The notes under the pieces: generated by a model
Seen by the model: the letters and a program-made list of their open reading frames with translations, nothing else
The model's database searches: none
What the model was told of the DNA's origin: nothing
Program-made: the position numbers and the translations under genes
Shown here: piece after piece, positions 17,829 to 29,640 of the stretch
Numbering within the stretch: the stretch's first letter is position 1
Layout: the number at the start of each line of letters is the position of its first letter
Source of the DNA: a virus
Length of the DNA stretch: 33,410 nt
Virus record (IMG/VR): IMGVR_UViG_3300021963_000016
Span: 1 to 33,410 of that record
Direction: 5' to 3' (one strand)

Positions 17829-18419
17829 ATGAAAGAATTATCATTAAACGAAAAATTAAGCAGAATTCAAATTGAATTTAAAGCTAACAAGTCAAGGTTT
17901 AACAGCTTTGGAAAATATAATTTTAGAAGTGCTGAAGATATATTAGAAGGTTTAAAACCATTCAACGAAAAGTATGGTGTATCTTTTACAATTACAGAAG
18001 AATTAGTAACCAATGATTTTGTAGCTAATACAATTCCTATGATGAAATCAACCGCAACTATATTTGACAACAATGGTATTAATGAATTAAGTGCTACTGC
18101 TATTGTAGGGGTAGATTTAAACCAAAAAGGTATGCAAGTACCTCAACAATTTGGTTCAGCTTCTTCTTATGCTAAAAAGTATGCTTTAGGAAACCTATTA
18201 TTAATTGACGATACACAAGACGCTGACGCTGCTAACAAACACGACAAAACAGATAGCGCAAATAATGCACCAACTGATGACAAAAAGTGGCTAAACAAAA
18301 ACACACCTGAATTTAGTAAATCAATTGAATACTTAAAAGGTGGTGGTAATATAGAAGCTATTGAAAAAAAGTATAAATTAGCCAAAGCAGTTAAGGACGA
18401 ATTATTAAAAGTAAAATAA
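17829..18419 (+). CDS. erf: ERF-family single-strand annealing protein
   Basis: This 196-aa recombinase anneals complementary single strands in phage recombination and circularisation. The ERF domain covers about residues 5-135: 'RFNSFGKYNFRSAEDILEGLKPF' in outline (about 23-45), a beta segment 'STATIFDNNGINELSATAIV', and the hallmark 'GSASSYAKKYALGNLLLIDD' (109-128). The C-terminal part is a variable, acidic then basic tail, ending in a helix that may contact SSB. Its neighbours NinG, SSB and the flap-type exonuclease make a complete annealing pathway. Confidence 0.88.
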   Translation: MKELSLNEKLSRIQIEFKANKSRFNSFGKYNFRSAEDILEGLKPFNEKYGVSFTITEELVTNDFVANTIPMMKSTATIFDNNGINELSATAIVGVDLNQKGMQVPQQFGSASSYAKKYALGNLLLIDDTQDADAANKHDKTDSANNAPTDDKKWLNKNTPEFSKSIEYLKGGGNIEAIEKKYKLAKAVKDELLKVK

Positions 18420-18422
18420 GAT

Positions 18423-18558
18423 ATGAGAAACATACACGTATTACCAACAGAGAAACCGAGTAAACTATTCTACAATGTAGGAGGAGCTTTATTATTTACA
18501 GATTATGAAAATTATAACGGTGTTAATATCTGCATCACTTCTGATGAAGAAATTAAAG
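18423..18558 (+). repeat. Mosaic repeat block A, copy 1
   Basis: 136 bases that match 26127-26262 without gaps, with about nine differences by eye. It encodes the shared N-terminus of two paralogous early proteins. Confidence 0.9.
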
Positions 18559-19238
18559 TAGGAGATTATGTTATTAATTCTGCAGCTTCATATGTATTTC
18601 AACATTATTTTGCAGAAGGTAATCTTTATAAAGAATGCAAAAAAATCATCCTAACAACAGACCAAGACTTAATCAAAGATGGTGTACAAGCTATTGATGA
18701 TGATTTCCTTGAATGGTTTGTTAAGAATCCAAGTTGTGAGTTTGTTGAGATTGATAATAGACCAAAAGTATCTTCATTTGAAAAAGGTTTTATGATAGAC
18801 AATCCTAATTACAACAAAATCATCATTCCAAAAGAAGAAGCTAAACAAGAAGGTTACATTTGTCCACATACTAAATTACAATGTGATAATGAATGTTGTG
18901 TAAGTGCATCAGATTGCCATATAAAAACAACAATAGGTATTATATCAGAACCTAAACAAGAAACACTTGAAAACATTTTTAATTGGAAACCTATTTATGC
19001 AAGTTCACGCAAGCAAGAAACAATTGAACAAGCATCAGAATACTACGCACATAACTATTTTTATATGCACGTAACAAATGACTATAAAGCACTAAAACAG
19101 GGGTTTGAAGCAGGCGTTAAATGGCAACAAGAACAAGACAAGAATACGTATAGTGAAGATGATATTAGTACAGCAATTGCTATGTATTTAGAAAATAAAT
19201 CATTCTCTGAAATTATTAAACAACTTAAAAACAAATAA
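18423..19238 (+). CDS. Mosaic early protein with Cys/His cluster (271 aa)
   Basis: This is a 271-aa protein of unknown function. Residues 1-45 ('IHVLPTEKPSKLFYNVGGAL') and about 73-106 ('IILTTDQDLIKDGVQAIDDD') are almost identical, also as DNA, to the protein at 26127, while the segments between differ. A Cys/His cluster follows ('CPHTKLQCDNECCVSASDCHI', about 142-162 in outline), possibly zinc-binding. The C-terminal part has 'GFEAGVKWQQEQDKNTYSEDD' and ends QLKNK. The KWQQEQ module also appears in the gene at 19812 and in the remnant at 26010. The last codons belong to the 20-nt linker repeat. This looks like a gene built from exchangeable modules. Confidence 0.7.
   Translation: MRNIHVLPTEKPSKLFYNVGGALLFTDYENYNGVNICITSDEEIKVGDYVINSAASYVFQHYFAEGNLYKECKKIILTTDQDLIKDGVQAIDDDFLEWFVKNPSCEFVEIDNRPKVSSFEKGFMIDNPNYNKIIIPKEEAKQEGYICPHTKLQCDNECCVSASDCHIKTTIGIISEPKQETLENIFNWKPIYASSRKQETIEQASEYYAHNYFYMHVTNDYKALKQGFEAGVKWQQEQDKNTYSEDDISTAIAMYLENKSFSEIIKQLKNK
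18639..18739 (+). repeat. Mosaic repeat block B, copy 1
   Basis: 101 bases that match 26373-26473, with two differences by eye. Between blocks A and B the two genes diverge and differ by 30 nt in length, so the conserved blocks flank a replaced segment. Confidence 0.9.
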
Positions 19239-19241
19239 GAT

Positions 19242-19586
19242 ATGGAAAATTTAACATTAGGAACATCGCAAACTTACACTAACGACCCTATCAATAATTT
19301 AGAAACTACTACTAATAATTTTAACATAGCGCATACAAGTGCAACAACTGCTGGATATATGTGGACTAATCCTACAAGATTAGAAGTACGTGAATTATCA
19401 GATAGTATTGAGATTATTTACGAGGAAACATCATTTATGAATTTTACAATTTATCCTTCACCACCACCTGAAAAAAGATACTTTAAAATTGTATTTAGTT
19501 GTGTAGATGGTAAATGGAATAAATCTGAAAGAATATACGGAGAAAAAATTGAACGTGAAGAATATTTTGAATTTAAAAACAAATAA
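19242..19586 (+). CDS. Paralogous early protein, copy 1 (114 aa)
   Basis: This 114-aa protein has a counterpart at 26916. Shared parts are the start (MENL, GTSQTYTNDP), 'MWTNPTRL', 'DSIE.IYEETS' and 'PPEKRYFKI.FSCVDGKWNK' to the end 'EYFEF'. Residues about 17-38 are low-complexity Asn/Thr-rich and differ between the two. It is beta-rich, without a signal or membrane segment. Here the frame continues into the linker as FKNK; in the second copy it does not. Function is unknown. Confidence 0.7.
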   Translation: MENLTLGTSQTYTNDPINNLETTTNNFNIAHTSATTAGYMWTNPTRLEVRELSDSIEIIYEETSFMNFTIYPSPPPEKRYFKIVFSCVDGKWNKSERIYGEKIEREEYFEFKNK

Positions 19587-19589
19587 GAT

Positions 19590-19712
19590 ATGAGAAATAC
19601 ATCATTAAGCAACAATAAATCAATAAATTCTATTGGTTTTATGAAAGATGTTCCTGCAACAATTATTTACGATTATAGTACTAAATGGTTTGAACAACTT
19701 AAATACAAATAA
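19590..19712 (+). CDS. Small ORF in linker cluster (40 aa)
   Basis: This 40-aa ORF runs from one linker copy to the next: MRNTSLSNNKSINSIGFMKD... ending 'WFEQLKYK'. The end is the linker-encoded tail in a variant form (KYK for KNK). It is too short for a family call. The EQLKYK end suggests it may be the shortened tail of a larger cassette protein. Confidence 0.5.
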   Translation: MRNTSLSNNKSINSIGFMKDVPATIIYDYSTKWFEQLKYK

Positions 19713-19715
19713 GAA

Positions 19716-19808
19716 ATGATAGAATTACTTTGTAGCATTATCATTGCTCTGCCTATATGGTTAGTTGCATTAGAGTTAAGACAGATGAATAAATTTAAAA
19801 ACAAATAA
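19716..19808 (+). CDS. 30-aa membrane peptide in linker cluster
   Basis: This 30-aa peptide has one hydrophobic helix (about 3-19, 'ELLCSIIIALPIWLVAL') and a basic tail ending in the linker-encoded NKFKNK. Start and stop both lie in linker copies. It resembles the two other membrane peptides in cluster 2 (26668 and 26797) in design, not in sequence. Confidence 0.5.
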   Translation: MIELLCSIIIALPIWLVALELRQMNKFKNK

Positions 19809-19811
19809 GAT

Positions 19812-20015
19812 ATGAAAACATTAATACCAATGACCAGCTTTGTGTTGGAACAAGAACAAAACAAGAATAAGTATAGTGAGGAAGATATGTTAAAAATGCT
19901 TCGCAAATTTGGCTTTGATTATACTTACAACTACAAAGGAGAAAAAACTATTTACGAATGGATACCTGAATGGTTTAAAGAATACAAAAGATTAGAACAA
20001 CTTAAAAACAAATAA
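19812..20015 (+). CDS. Small protein sharing the QEQ module (67 aa)
   Basis: This 67-aa protein has 'FVLEQEQNKNKYSEEDM' near the start (about 10-26), which matches 'KWQQEQDKNTYSEDD' in the large protein at 18423. The rest ('FGFDYTYNYKGEKTIYEWI') is unique. It ends QLKNK in the linker. It looks like a short gene made from the C-terminal module of the larger protein plus new sequence. Function is unknown. Confidence 0.6.
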   Translation: MKTLIPMTSFVLEQEQNKNKYSEEDMLKMLRKFGFDYTYNYKGEKTIYEWIPEWFKEYKRLEQLKNK

Positions 20016-20018
20016 GAT

Positions 20019-20225
20019 ATGAAATCAATAACAAGGTCAGTAATTAAGTTGTCAGAACTTCCTGAACACTTACAAAAAGCTACAATATTTAAAGGACATA
20101 AAATACACACTTATGCAGAATTTCATATTGATGATTCAGAAAAAGATGAATTAACAATGTGGTTAATAGATAAGTATCCTACAATAAAACGTAAGATTAG
20201 CTTTTTAATTCATATAGATAAATAA
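20019..20225 (+). CDS. Early protein (68 aa), unknown function
   Basis: This 68-aa protein starts from the last linker copy of cluster 1 but does not end in one. It reads MKSITRSVIKLSELPEHLQ... 'AEFHIDDSEKDELTMWLIDKYP' ... It is mixed alpha/beta with an acidic middle and a basic end. No motif is recognised. It is the last gene before SSB. Confidence 0.6.
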   Translation: MKSITRSVIKLSELPEHLQKATIFKGHKIHTYAEFHIDDSEKDELTMWLIDKYPTIKRKISFLIHIDK

Positions 20226-26013: not shown

Positions 26014-26123
26014 AATGGAAACAAGAACAAATAGGTAAGTCAGAGTTTCTACAAAAATTAAGAGCAACAATCTCTGATGCAGAAGCAAGAAGATTAATAT
26101 TTGAACAATTTAAAAACAAATAA
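26010..26123 (+). pseudogene. Headless remnant of a linker-type gene (C-terminal module)
   Basis: An open stretch of 37 codons, with a TAG stop just before it (26007-26009) and no ATG, GTG or TTG start, reads 'KWKQEQIGKSEFLQKLRATI' and then 'SDAEARRLIFEQFKNK'. The KW-QEQ core matches the C-terminal part of the protein at 18423 (VKWQQEQ), and the end is the linker tail FKNK. The upstream gene's stop falls at its left edge. This looks like the tail of a cassette gene whose front was lost by recombination. A non-standard start (ATA or ATT) is the alternative. Confidence 0.7.
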
Positions 26124-26126
26124 GAA

Positions 26127-26262
26127 ATGAAAAACATACACGTATTACCAACAGAGAAACCAAGTAAACTATTCTACAATGTAGGAGGAGCTTTACTATT
26201 TACAAATTACGAAAACCATAACGGTGTTAACATCTACATCACTTCTGATGAAGAAATTAAAG
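26127..26262 (+). repeat. Mosaic repeat block A, copy 2
   Basis: Matches 18423-18558 without gaps, with about nine differences by eye. Most differences are silent or conservative, so both copies seem to be under selection. Confidence 0.9.
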
Positions 26263-26666
26263 AGGGGGATTGGTGCTTCTATGTTAATAGTATATATAAA
26301 GTATTAAGAATTAGCAGTAATAATAGGCCTATAATAAAAATGTCTGATGGTACATTTGAAATATCTTATTATAAAAAAATCATCCTAACAACAGACCAAG
26401 ACTTAATCAAAGATGGTGTACAAGCTATTGATGATGAGTTCCTTGAATGGTTTGTTAAGAATCCGAGTTGTGATGAGGTTAAGGTAAATAATTTATGTTA
26501 TGGTGCTTTAGGCGCATTTGCTGATGCAGGTTACAAAATCATCATTCCAAGAACAACTGAACAATTTAAAAAATCGGATTGTCAACATCAATTCATAAGA
26601 ACGGGTGATTCATTTGATTTGACTATTTACTGTAAAAAATGTGGTATAAACTATAAAAACAAATAA
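26127..26666 (+). CDS. Mosaic early protein, paralog of 18423 (179 aa)
   Basis: This 179-aa protein shares residues 1-45 and about 83-115 with the 271-aa protein at 18423, at near-identical DNA level, but the segment between and the C-terminal part differ. Its own C-terminus has 'DCQHQFIRTGDSFDLTIYCKKCGINYKNK', here in outline: C, H and a CxxC pair, like a small zinc ribbon. It ends in YKNK at a linker copy. The pair shows replacement of central and C-terminal modules around a conserved frame. Function is unknown. Confidence 0.7.
   Translation: MKNIHVLPTEKPSKLFYNVGGALLFTNYENHNGVNIYITSDEEIKEGDWCFYVNSIYKVLRISSNNRPIIKMSDGTFEISYYKKIILTTDQDLIKDGVQAIDDEFLEWFVKNPSCDEVKVNNLCYGALGAFADAGYKIIIPRTTEQFKKSDCQHQFIRTGDSFDLTIYCKKCGINYKNK
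26373..26473 (+). repeat. Mosaic repeat block B, copy 2
   Basis: Matches 18639-18739 with two differences. It is closer to its partner than block A, which fits more recent exchange or conversion. Confidence 0.9.
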
Positions 26667-26667
26667 G

Positions 26668-26793
26668 ATGATATTAGAAACAATTTTAGAGACGTCATAC
26701 TATATTATAGCAACATTAATAACAACAGCAATAGTAATAGCTTTAGTTAGGTTAATAATAGAATTAATAAAAGAAACATTTAAAAACAAATAA
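26668..26793 (+). CDS. Membrane peptide in linker cluster (41 aa)
   Basis: This 41-aa peptide has a long hydrophobic helix (about 11-33, 'YYIIATLITTAIVIALVRLI') between an acidic start and the tail ETFKNK. The ATG follows the upstream stop by one base (TAAGATG). It begins and ends in linker copies. One inner-membrane span is expected. Function is unknown. Confidence 0.6.
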   Translation: MILETILETSYYIIATLITTAIVIALVRLIIELIKETFKNK

Positions 26794-26796
26794 GAT

Positions 26797-26883
26797 ATGA
26801 CAAGTATTATAAGTGGTTTTTTAGGAATTATTGTAGGATTAATTATAGTTTTACTTATTGCTCATAAATTTAAAAACAAATAA
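26797..26883 (+). CDS. 28-aa membrane peptide in linker cluster
   Basis: This 28-aa peptide (MTSIISGFLGIIVGLIIVLL...) is one hydrophobic helix with a GxxxG-like pattern and a basic tail KFKNK. It starts in an exact linker and ends in a half linker. It could oligomerise in the membrane. It may be a real microprotein or just a frame bounded by linkers. Confidence 0.5.
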   Translation: MTSIISGFLGIIVGLIIVLLIAHKFKNK

Positions 26884-26915
26884 CCCCGATTGCAAGGATA
26901 AGTGCTACAAAAATT

Positions 26916-27236
26916 ATGGAAAATTTAACATCAGGAACATCACAAACTTACACAAATGACCCATTAATTACTACAGGAACAGTATATACAGGAACAGGCG
27001 GAACAACTGTTGGGTTTATGTGGACTAATCCTACAAGATTACAAGTAAATGAACGAATAGATAGTATCGAGATGATTTATGAAGAAACATCACTTGCAAC
27101 TTTAACTATCCATTTTTCCCAACCACCTGAAAAAAGATACTTTAAAATTATATTTAGTTGTGTAGATGGTAAATGGAATAAGTCTGAAAGGATTTATGGA
27201 AAAAAAATTGAACATCAAGAATATTTTGAATTTTAA
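26916..27236 (+). CDS. Paralogous early protein, copy 2 (106 aa)
   Basis: This 106-aa counterpart of 19242 has the same start (MENLT-GTSQTYTNDP), a different Thr/Gly-rich insert (about 17-32), then 'MWTNPTRLQV', 'DSIEMIYEETS' and 'CVDGKWNKSERIYG'. It ends at EYFEF because one extra T at 27231-27234 creates an early TAA. The linker DNA behind it is nevertheless perfect. Upstream (26884-26915) a short stretch reads DCKDKCYKN in one frame, like the KCYYK part of the protein at 29108, perhaps a trace of a lost gene. Confidence 0.7.
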   Translation: MENLTSGTSQTYTNDPLITTGTVYTGTGGTTVGFMWTNPTRLQVNERIDSIEMIYEETSLATLTIHFSQPPEKRYFKIIFSCVDGKWNKSERIYGKKIEHQEYFEF

Positions 27237-27249
27237 AAACAAATAAGAT

Positions 27250-27474
27250 ATGACAGCAGTAGAATGGTATTCTCAACAACATTTAAAACTTTTAATCAAG
27301 TTAGAAAATAAAGAATTAAGTATCGGAGAATACGCAGTGCAACACCAAGAAATGGAAAAGCAACAGATTATTGATGCGCATTTAAACGGACAAGCAGAAT
27401 TTGACAAAGGAAAGTTTAGGAAAGAAGTTATGATAAACGCAGAAGAATACTACAACGAAACATTTAACATATGA
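27250..27474 (+). CDS. Small early protein (74 aa)
   Basis: This 74-aa helical, Glu/Gln-rich protein starts in the last linker of cluster 2: MTAVEWYSQQHLKLLIKLEN... 'QHQEMEKQQIIDAHLNGQAE'... It ends YNETFNI. This W/Y-S-QQ and 'QEMEKQQI.DA' pattern is typical of small phage proteins of unknown function. Its stop overlaps the next ATG (ATGA). Confidence 0.65.
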   Translation: MTAVEWYSQQHLKLLIKLENKELSIGEYAVQHQEMEKQQIIDAHLNGQAEFDKGKFRKEVMINAEEYYNETFNI

Positions 27475-28869: not shown

Positions 28870-29111
28870 CATTAAGAGAAAAATTTAAAACTGAAGTAAG
28901 TATTAACACAGAAGGAGAAGCCGGAAGATTTGCAAATAAATGTGAACAAATAGCAGATAATTACGCTATTGAGTTTGCACAATGGATAACGAATGAAAAA
29001 TCAAAGTATTCTATTATGTATGGAAATCAGAATAAACGTTTTGCAGACTTTGATAAAGAATACACATCAAAAGAACTATTAGAAATATTCAAAAAAGAAA
29101 AAGGTTTATGA
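28866..29111 (+). CDS. Early protein ending in IFKKEKGL (81 aa)
   Basis: This 81-aa protein is MTLREKFKTEVSINTEGEAG... 'YAIEFAQWITNEKSKYSIMY' ... It has a mixed helix/strand order and ends IFKKEKGL, the same tail as the next gene. Both ends overlap neighbours by ATGA. The shared 3' end is a 27-nt DNA repeat (29085-29111 and 29255-29281). Function is unknown. Confidence 0.65.
   Translation: MTLREKFKTEVSINTEGEAGRFANKCEQIADNYAIEFAQWITNEKSKYSIMYGNQNKRFADFDKEYTSKELLEIFKKEKGL
29085..29111 (+). repeat. Second type of gene-junction repeat, copy 1
   Basis: 27 bases, ATATTCAAAAAAGAAAAAGG then TTTATGA, matching 29255-29281 with one difference. It encodes the tail IFKKEKGL, the TGA stop and the overlapping ATG of the next gene. 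Confidence 0.9.
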
Positions 29112-29281
29112 AAGTATCAAGACCAAAAACTGAAAAATGGCATAATTACGATGAAGGTGATTGTGGCAAACCAATAGACCGTGATGGTAGTAATAAGTGC
29201 TACTATAAAAAAGGATTTTGGAAAAGGTATGACAGAAAGAAGTTTTTAAAAAACATATTCAAAAAAGAAAAAGGATTATGA
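29108..29281 (+). CDS. Small basic protein (57 aa) ending in IFKKEKGL
   Basis: This 57-aa basic protein contains 'KTEKWHNYDEGDCGKPIDRD', 'GSNKCYYKKGFWKRYDRKKF' and the tail IFKKEKGL. C19 and C31 with H12 could form a partial metal site. The KCYYK motif recurs as a trace at about 26899-26910. Both ends are ATGA overlaps. Function is unknown. Confidence 0.65.
   Translation: MKVSRPKTEKWHNYDEGDCGKPIDRDGSNKCYYKKGFWKRYDRKKFLKNIFKKEKGL
29255..29281 (+). repeat. Second type of gene-junction repeat, copy 2
   Basis: Partner of 29085-29111, same frame and same stop-start overlap. One base differs (GGA for GGT). Confidence 0.9.
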
Positions 29282-29640
29282 GAATAACAGAAATAATAGA
29301 AATTTTAAGAAACGATAACACATCTTACCTATGGGATTTACCTAAACCTAAATGGGAAGCAATAGATTATTATAATCTTAATCAAATTAAACAAGGTAAC
29401 GATTACAAAAACAAAAAGAAAGTACTTGACTTTGTAGAACTATCTGATAAGAGTTTAAAGATGCAGCAAGAACAATCACATAGGATGAAACCTATAAGAA
29501 GAAAATCAGATGGTAAAGTATTTAGTGGAATGATACAACTATGCAGGGAAACAGGTATTAATCGTTCTTCACTATCTTTAGCTTTAAATAACAGACCAAA
29601 TGGTTTACAGAAATACAAAGATGAATACGAATTCATTTAA
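29278..29640 (+). CDS. NUMOD1-like DNA-binding protein (120 aa)
   Basis: This 120-aa protein has a C-terminal module (about 72-118): 'PIRRKSDGKVFSGMIQLCRE', 'TGINRSSLSLALNNRPNGLQ'. That order (a short hairpin with a 'G.vf.s' turn, then 'GINRSSLS.AL') is the NUMOD1-type helix-turn-helix found beside homing nucleases and as free DNA-binding proteins. No nuclease motif is present. The N-terminal half is helical and basic. It is the last early gene before terminase and may act as a regulator of the switch or as a packaging-site binder. Confidence 0.65.
   Translation: MRITEIIEILRNDNTSYLWDLPKPKWEAIDYYNLNQIKQGNDYKNKKKVLDFVELSDKSLKMQQEQSHRMKPIRRKSDGKVFSGMIQLCRETGINRSSLSLALNNRPNGLQKYKDEYEFI

Follow-up and report, generated by a model that had tools for sequence, protein, structure and literature searches.

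A 21-nucleotide stop-leader-start linker probably joins shuffled single-gene cassettes in otherwise unrelated phages

Why should a short sequence at a gene junction stay exact where a frameshift has removed it from the coding frame of the gene that it ends? The question is raised by a single IMG/VR virus record of 33,410 bp, analysed as a whole (hereafter the window; the two arrays described below, with their genes and linkers, and the resident gene beside array A lie on its + strand), which carries two paralogous genes at 19242-19586 (MENLTLG...EYFEFKNK*) and 26916-27236 (MENLTSG...EYFEF*). The preliminary description had stated that both reach the codons for EYFEF, that the first reads on as KNK, that one extra T creates an early stop codon in the second, and that the bases of the adjoining linker are unchanged despite the frameshift. 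All of this was confirmed: GAATATTTTGAATTT is found exactly at both 19560-19574 and 27219-27233, the second paralog has four T at 27231-27234 and terminates at the TAA 27234-27236, and the 21-nt linker TTTAAAAACAAATAAGATATG is intact at 27232-27252, its ATG (27250) being the start of a MTAVEW...YYNETFNI gene (27250-27474).

The linker spans the end of one small gene and the start of the next. Eight copies with at most 3 mismatches are present in the window against 0.08 expected, each of them on the + strand and ending in the ATG of an open reading frame, and they fall in two arrays, at 18.4-20.2 kb (array A) and 26.1-27.3 kb (array B). The exact 21-mer was found in at least 118 IMG/VR stretches, its reversed control in none, and a form with one more T ahead of the ATG (GATTATG) in 82 stretches. 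Fifty whole records yielded 146 matches with at most 2 mismatches vs none for the control, and in 48 of these records the linkers are confined to a single strand. A chance A-rich repeat was ruled out by the eight copies against 0.08 expected and by the absence of any match to the control and to the reversed 21-mer. When 300 copies with at most 3 mismatches were considered, 263 ended in an ATG that opens a frame of 20 codons or more, and most of the remaining ones were spacing variants, GATTATG or GAATTATG. As to the spacing, GATTATG predominates in two phages (L022 and L364, with 7 copies in the loci of each) and GATATG in others; such a preference by phage suggests homogenisation within genomes or lineages.

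The linker occurs in unrelated phages ranging from 12 to 256 kb. Among 84,980 prokaryote genomes the linker occurs in only three contigs, one of which is a Flavobacterium MAG contig with three copies. The terminase of the window is of the Terminase_3 type and closest to those of Nonlabens and Riemerella phages, the nearest isolate being Nonlabens phage P12024L (56%). Judging from the linker-bearing prokaryote contigs and the terminase, the hosts are probably Flavobacteriaceae. Cultivated relatives were found neither by DNA search nor with the MTAVEW protein, and a distant search for them gave just short chance-like matches. The cassette genes have no Pfam or PADLOC match and one weak match to a PHROG of unknown function, and a search of the literature on the linker sequence and on repeats in Flavobacterium phages returned nothing relevant.

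Eighty relatives of the window were gathered via the core ATPase gene. The sequences on the two sides of array A abut each other, leaving the site empty, in 50 of the 65 relatives assessable there, and those flanking array B are contiguous in 15 of 17; on this comparison, both arrays are to be regarded as insertions absent from most close relatives. Array A (18420-20225) is an inserted block of six small genes, whose borders share AAATAA with the end of the resident gene. The latter (17829-18419) encodes an ERF-superfamily single-strand annealing protein (PF04404, E 1.2e-31) and ends in GTAAAATAA at the empty site; at the left border in the window (18411-18425) its stop, GTAAAATAA, is joined to a half-linker, so that GATATG, the 3' part of the linker, stands directly after the resident TAA. 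The last gene of the array ends in AAATAA, and then resident sequence resumes. From the left and right border sequences it follows that the joint there shares AAATAA only.

Within array A, gene 1 (MRNIHVLP...QLKNK*, 18423-19238) is followed by a linker copy with one mismatch (CTT..., 19224-19244), gene 2, which is the first of the two paralogs, by an exact copy read as FKNK* (19572-19592), gene 3 (19590-19712) by a copy with three mismatches (19698-19718), gene 4 (19716-19808) by an exact copy (19794-19814) and gene 5 (19812-20015) by a copy with one mismatch (20001-20021), while gene 6 (20019-20225) ends with the AAATAA of the right border. Array B is an inserted block at 26014-27470. At its beginning METRTNR* (26015-26035) looks like a remnant of a METKQTAIEF...YYNETFKK gene, which is intact at this site in one relative (L167, 14193). 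Further on there are a linker copy with one mismatch (GAAATG, 26109-26129), the gene MKNIHVLP...NYKNK* (26127-26666), a degenerate linker (ATAAAAACAAATAAG-ATG, with TAAG-ATG, about 26652-26670), the gene MILETIL...ETFKNK* (26668-26793), an exact linker copy (26779-26799), the gene MTSIISG...KFKNK* (26797-26883), then a half-linker (about 26869-26883, its 5' half only) with a different leader (CCCCGATTGCAAGGATAAGTGCTAC), and finally the focal gene, the exact focal linker and the MTAVEW gene. The genes at 18423-19238 and 26127-26666 are paralogs that have MxNIHVLPTEKPSKLFYNVGGALLFT in common and differ in their C-terminal parts, which suggests that domains are mixed as well as genes. Pieces at 18631-18756 match many linker phages.

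How the linker is read was determined for 286 copies that, ahead of a TAAGA..ATG anchor, have at most 4 mismatches over 12 nt. The upstream gene reads as FKNK* in 174 of them, ends like the focal copy at the TAA in TTTAA in 46, and overlaps by running through in the third frame in 12; in the other 54 no upstream ORF of at least 25 codons reaches the linker. The corresponding numbers for the GATTATG set are 43, 14, 0 and 21. Copies in the third frame, which meets no stop within the linker, are few in either set, and the other two frames do stop there, which makes it a two-frame stop plus a start. Comparison of coding and non-coding copies, proposed in the preliminary description, revealed that the non-coding ones are at least as exact: perfect copies constitute 58% of the FKNK class, 72% of the TTTAA class and 70% of the class without an ORF, absolute exactness being inflated in all classes, as most loci were gathered by exact linker match.

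These numbers bear on the reading according to which the C-terminal FKNK peptide itself is selected, as a tag or a helix end, and the linker is just its coding sequence. About 60-75% of the copies are indeed read in the FKNK frame, but those outside it are equally exact; besides, single-base codon changes in the FKNK copies (7 synonymous vs 55 nonsynonymous) are in the neutral proportion, and N->K changes at position 9 are commoner than silent ones. On the synonymous counts and the frame classes we rejected the peptide-tag reading, which we regard as scarcely credible. The data support the view that the linker is kept as DNA or RNA and not as the FKNK peptide. This is what the preliminary description had proposed, and the frame classes and the 7:55 ratio bear it out; the same argument drawn from the focal junction alone did not stand, in view of three homologous copies without the extra T.

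Homologs of the focal gene were found in two other phages (L123 and L124), and the extra T is absent from both of them, as well as from the first paralog. Thus, among all the homologs found, the extra T is private to the focal copy and could be recent or an error; with three homologous copies free of it, the shift is perhaps not old enough for conservation to be judged from it. An error of sequencing or assembly, with the gene truly ending in FKNK*, would concern this junction only. Such an error, for which the position within a short T run and the three T-free homologs speak, is rather unlikely: independent junctions elsewhere, at identities of up to 98.4%, also have the linker displaced by one base, and about 45 further copies make use of the TTTAA frame. 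Of 75 pairs in which one and the same upstream gene precedes different downstream genes, 7 show a displaced linker; the shift amounts to one base in 6 of the 7, and the focal copy takes part in three. For instance, the 3' end of the 26668 gene is 98.4% identical to that of its counterpart in L122, where the linker lies one base further, so that the ends differ. As judged from these pairs, the focal frameshift is one case of a class of frame slips. In terms of sequence it leaves the joint working, stops being present in two of the three linker frames, and merely shifts the upstream gene to another stop codon within the same linker. The event was probably a one-base slip at the 5' edge of the joint, by which termination of the upstream gene passed from the second TAA of the linker to the first, with no damage to the joint or to the start of the downstream gene.

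The downstream gene differs in all four homologous copies (MTAVEW, MRNTSLS, MKKKLIE and MKTQESR), and the focal-gene protein is 86-92% identical between phages as far as the linker, with an unrelated gene beyond it. In the window itself, the first paralog is followed by the MRNTSLS gene and the second by the MTAVEW gene, which argues that the focal linker is not a plain inherited copy. As for the MTAVEW gene, it is 99.7% identical to that of another phage (L171) from 27347 onward and diverged 5' of this position. The switch coincides with a conserved EMEKQQIIDA block; its location inside the gene suggests that crossovers occur within cassette genes too.

The association of linkers with changes of neighbours was assessed on junction pairs in which one flanking gene reaches at least 80% identity, and homology of its neighbour across the junction was scored; linker-free gene junctions within 2 kb of linkers served as the comparison set. 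The neighbour is kept in 10 of 128 pairs at linkers vs 98 of 219 at nearby linker-free junctions. Starting from the upstream gene, the figures are 5/57 and 48/106 (Fisher 1.2e-6), and starting from the downstream gene, 5/71 and 50/113 (Fisher 2.1e-8), the P values being nominal, for the pairs are not independent, and the effect about five- to six-fold. At identities of at least 95% the neighbour is still kept in 17-20% of pairs at linkers vs 64-66% at linker-free junctions. Blast matches between linker loci have both their ends within linkers in 19 cases, vs 1.9 (maximum 6) for random shifts, and a single end there in 129 cases vs 38 for randomly shifted matches. These comparisons of assembled sequences show linkers to be synteny breakpoints at which gene order is scrambled. 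The suggestion of recent copying at the linker, made in the preliminary description, has proved sound, as linkers are joints of shuffled cassettes.

Exchange extends to phages that have little else in common. Two of them, G032 (256 kb) and G041 (39 kb), share 451 bp among the DNA compared (large phages were compared in parts only), all of it in arrays, and 400 bp of the 451 are 98.8% identical from linker to linker; the same cassette is present in a close relative of the window (G027, 93% over 401 bp). The sole piece common to G041 and G045 is 181 bp long (98.3%) and again runs from linker to linker. In the window, 19570-19718 and 19699-19814 have linker-to-linker matches of 95-97% in other phages: gene 3 of array A in a 66-kb phage (L055/G037, 95.3%) and gene 4 in two phages (L014/G009 and L055/G037; 97.4% and 96.6%). 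These two cassettes are adjacent in the window, and in G037 further linker-bounded genes lie between them. To the extent that assembled genomes can tell, linker-edged single-gene cassettes are shown to be shuffled and swapped by dozens of otherwise unrelated phages.

We consider it probable that the linker, TTTAAAAACAAATAAGAT-ATG, is a stop-leader-start joint bounding single-gene cassettes, which would be shuffled by recombination at the linker. It combines a two-frame stop (TTT AAA AAC AAA TAA and TTTAA) with a leader rich in A and with the start codon (ATG) of the following gene, so that nearly every upstream gene is able to terminate within it and any downstream gene to be initiated from it. 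The linker is A-rich around -11 to -15, and leaders of F. johnsoniae favour A-rich -11 to -15 together with A at -3 and -6 (PMC6847099). The GATATG form, in which -3 is G and -6 is T where F. johnsoniae favours A, is not an optimal leader.

These bases matter for a reading that we hold to have a small but real chance, namely that the linker is an expression or translation signal of the downstream small gene, which travels with this gene under selection on initiation, the breaks being ordinary gene-border mosaicism. The start codon of the downstream ORF at the end of nearly every copy, the retention of the ATG in the spacing variants and the A-rich region resembling that of F. johnsoniae leaders agree with such a signal, and the start-associated sequences (SAS) of cluster K mycobacteriophages provide a precedent. 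However, the same downstream gene occurs with and without the linker and mismatch counts are bimodal, which argues that the linker is not a fixed part of the gene; moreover, linker junctions break far more often than nearby linker-free ones, and the key initiation bases, -3 and -6, are not A in the main form. Anyway, the roles of an SAS-like leader and of a cassette joint can both be true, and those of leader and crossover site are compatible.

Another possibility, a dedicated enzyme (a site-specific recombinase or a homing nuclease) recognising the linker, would make the system a phage analogue of integron cassettes and account for single genes that lie between direct copies of one short site, in one direction, and are swapped among unrelated phages. 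We regard it as very unlikely: a scan of genes beside the arrays brought no enzyme of this kind to light, the linker is, by inspection, without an inverted repeat, and the array borders share AAATAA only. Returning to the stop-leader-start joint, mosaic junctions in assembled genomes display the outcome of exchange and not its mechanism, which we infer. The exchange could proceed by homologous recombination or single-strand annealing at the linkers of about 20 bp, and by recombination or annealing at AAATAA instead at the array borders, presumably during co-infection. A protein that anneals single strands might assist, the ERF whose gene adjoins array A being a candidate recombinase. An ERF is encoded in 7 of the 33 linker records, and in 6 of these its gene lies no more than a few kb from linkers; the proximity speaks for such a part of ERF and the small number of records against it. 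The sequence would remain uniform because it serves at once as crossover site and as functional leader. Linker variants showed no clear tracking with the upstream gene, the downstream gene or the genome, and crossover positions were not revealed by them.

The linker functions like the PeSL cassettes of T4-type phages, reportedly treated in Arbiol 2010 and Comeau 2014, and resembles the SAS of mycobacteriophages in position; it belongs to neither. Inspected by eye, its 21 nt include no G+C-rich inverted repeat and no promoter of the TAnnTTTG type, the early promoter consensus used for comparison. PeSL (promoter early stem-loop) is described, in a paper citing these two, as a repeated short intergenic sequence among small accessory genes of T4-type phages, held to mediate module shuffling (PMC4503421). 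The linker is likewise a repeated sequence at which modules are shuffled; by the same citing paper, and by their name, PeSLs carry an early promoter and a stem-loop (PMC4503421), whereas the linker, by inspection, has neither and overlaps stop and start codons, and PeSLs belong to T4-type myoviruses, while the linker occurs in unrelated phages, the window with its Terminase_3-type terminase among them. As to the SAS, it is 13 bp long (consensus GGGATAGGAGCCC) with a Shine-Dalgarno-like core and is essentially confined to cluster K, and the ESAS stays with given gene families (PMC3203893). Both SAS and linker are short repeats of one orientation that lie a few nucleotides from where small non-structural genes start and that host genomes almost entirely lack, and the upstream stop can fall inside either of them (PMC3203893). 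In contrast to the SAS, the linker is 21 bp long (TTTAAAAACAAATAAGATATG), lacks GGAG or another Shine-Dalgarno sequence and occurs in many unrelated phages; in contrast to the ESAS, it is seen both present and absent at the same gene, with bimodal mismatches.

Short conserved sequences between modules, at which homologous recombination is thought to shuffle them, are also described as the linker sequences of lambdoid phages and the repeats of Campylobacter group II phages (PMC4546147). The present linker is likewise a short conserved sequence between shuffled units, as seen here from assembled genomes alone, but the lambdoid and Campylobacter sequences join large modules and its own unit is one small gene; the Campylobacter repeats are, furthermore, 72-86 bp units in arrays (PMC4546147), whereas the linker is part of a coding junction. 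With integrons, whose cassettes go with an attC site and a tyrosine integrase, it has in common single genes of one orientation, each bounded by a common site; no integrase is found among the genes scanned beside the arrays, and no attC-type folded site was found.

Two further places in the window deserve mention. At 26869-26918 the half-linker is followed by CCCCGATTGCAAGGATAAGTGCTACAAAAATTATGGAAAA, a leader common to L124 and L171, and matches to G003 begin there; sequence comparison identifies this stretch as a second conserved joint ahead of genes starting with MEN. A second repeated gene junction (ATATTCAAAAAAGAAAAAGG-TTATG) is located at 29085-29119 and 29255-29289, where proteins end in IFKKEKGL*; homology with the relatives breaks there, and a 53-bp piece (29052-29104) matches an otherwise unrelated phage (G041). 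This junction is possibly another linker of the same kind.

The mosaicism of phage genomes is commonly attributed to illegitimate recombination at random points, with selection acting afterwards. In the present case gene borders are made interchangeable by a 21-bp linker, and single small genes move between phages without other detectable common DNA in what was compared. A broader proposal, which we put forward tentatively and do not favour over its negation, is that a wide range of unrelated phages infecting a single bacterial group, with genomes of small to jumbo size, share a pool of single-gene cassettes and that a universal stop-leader-start joint has been selected as the exchange interface, allowing any cassette to stand behind any gene. 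Of practical value is the fact that the linker can be searched for and so gives the boundaries of accessory genes of unknown function; at the same time it is a warning that the FKNK with which many predicted proteins end is a scar left by the joint and not a motif. With this, the old linker hypothesis of modular evolution becomes testable in a non-model phage group.
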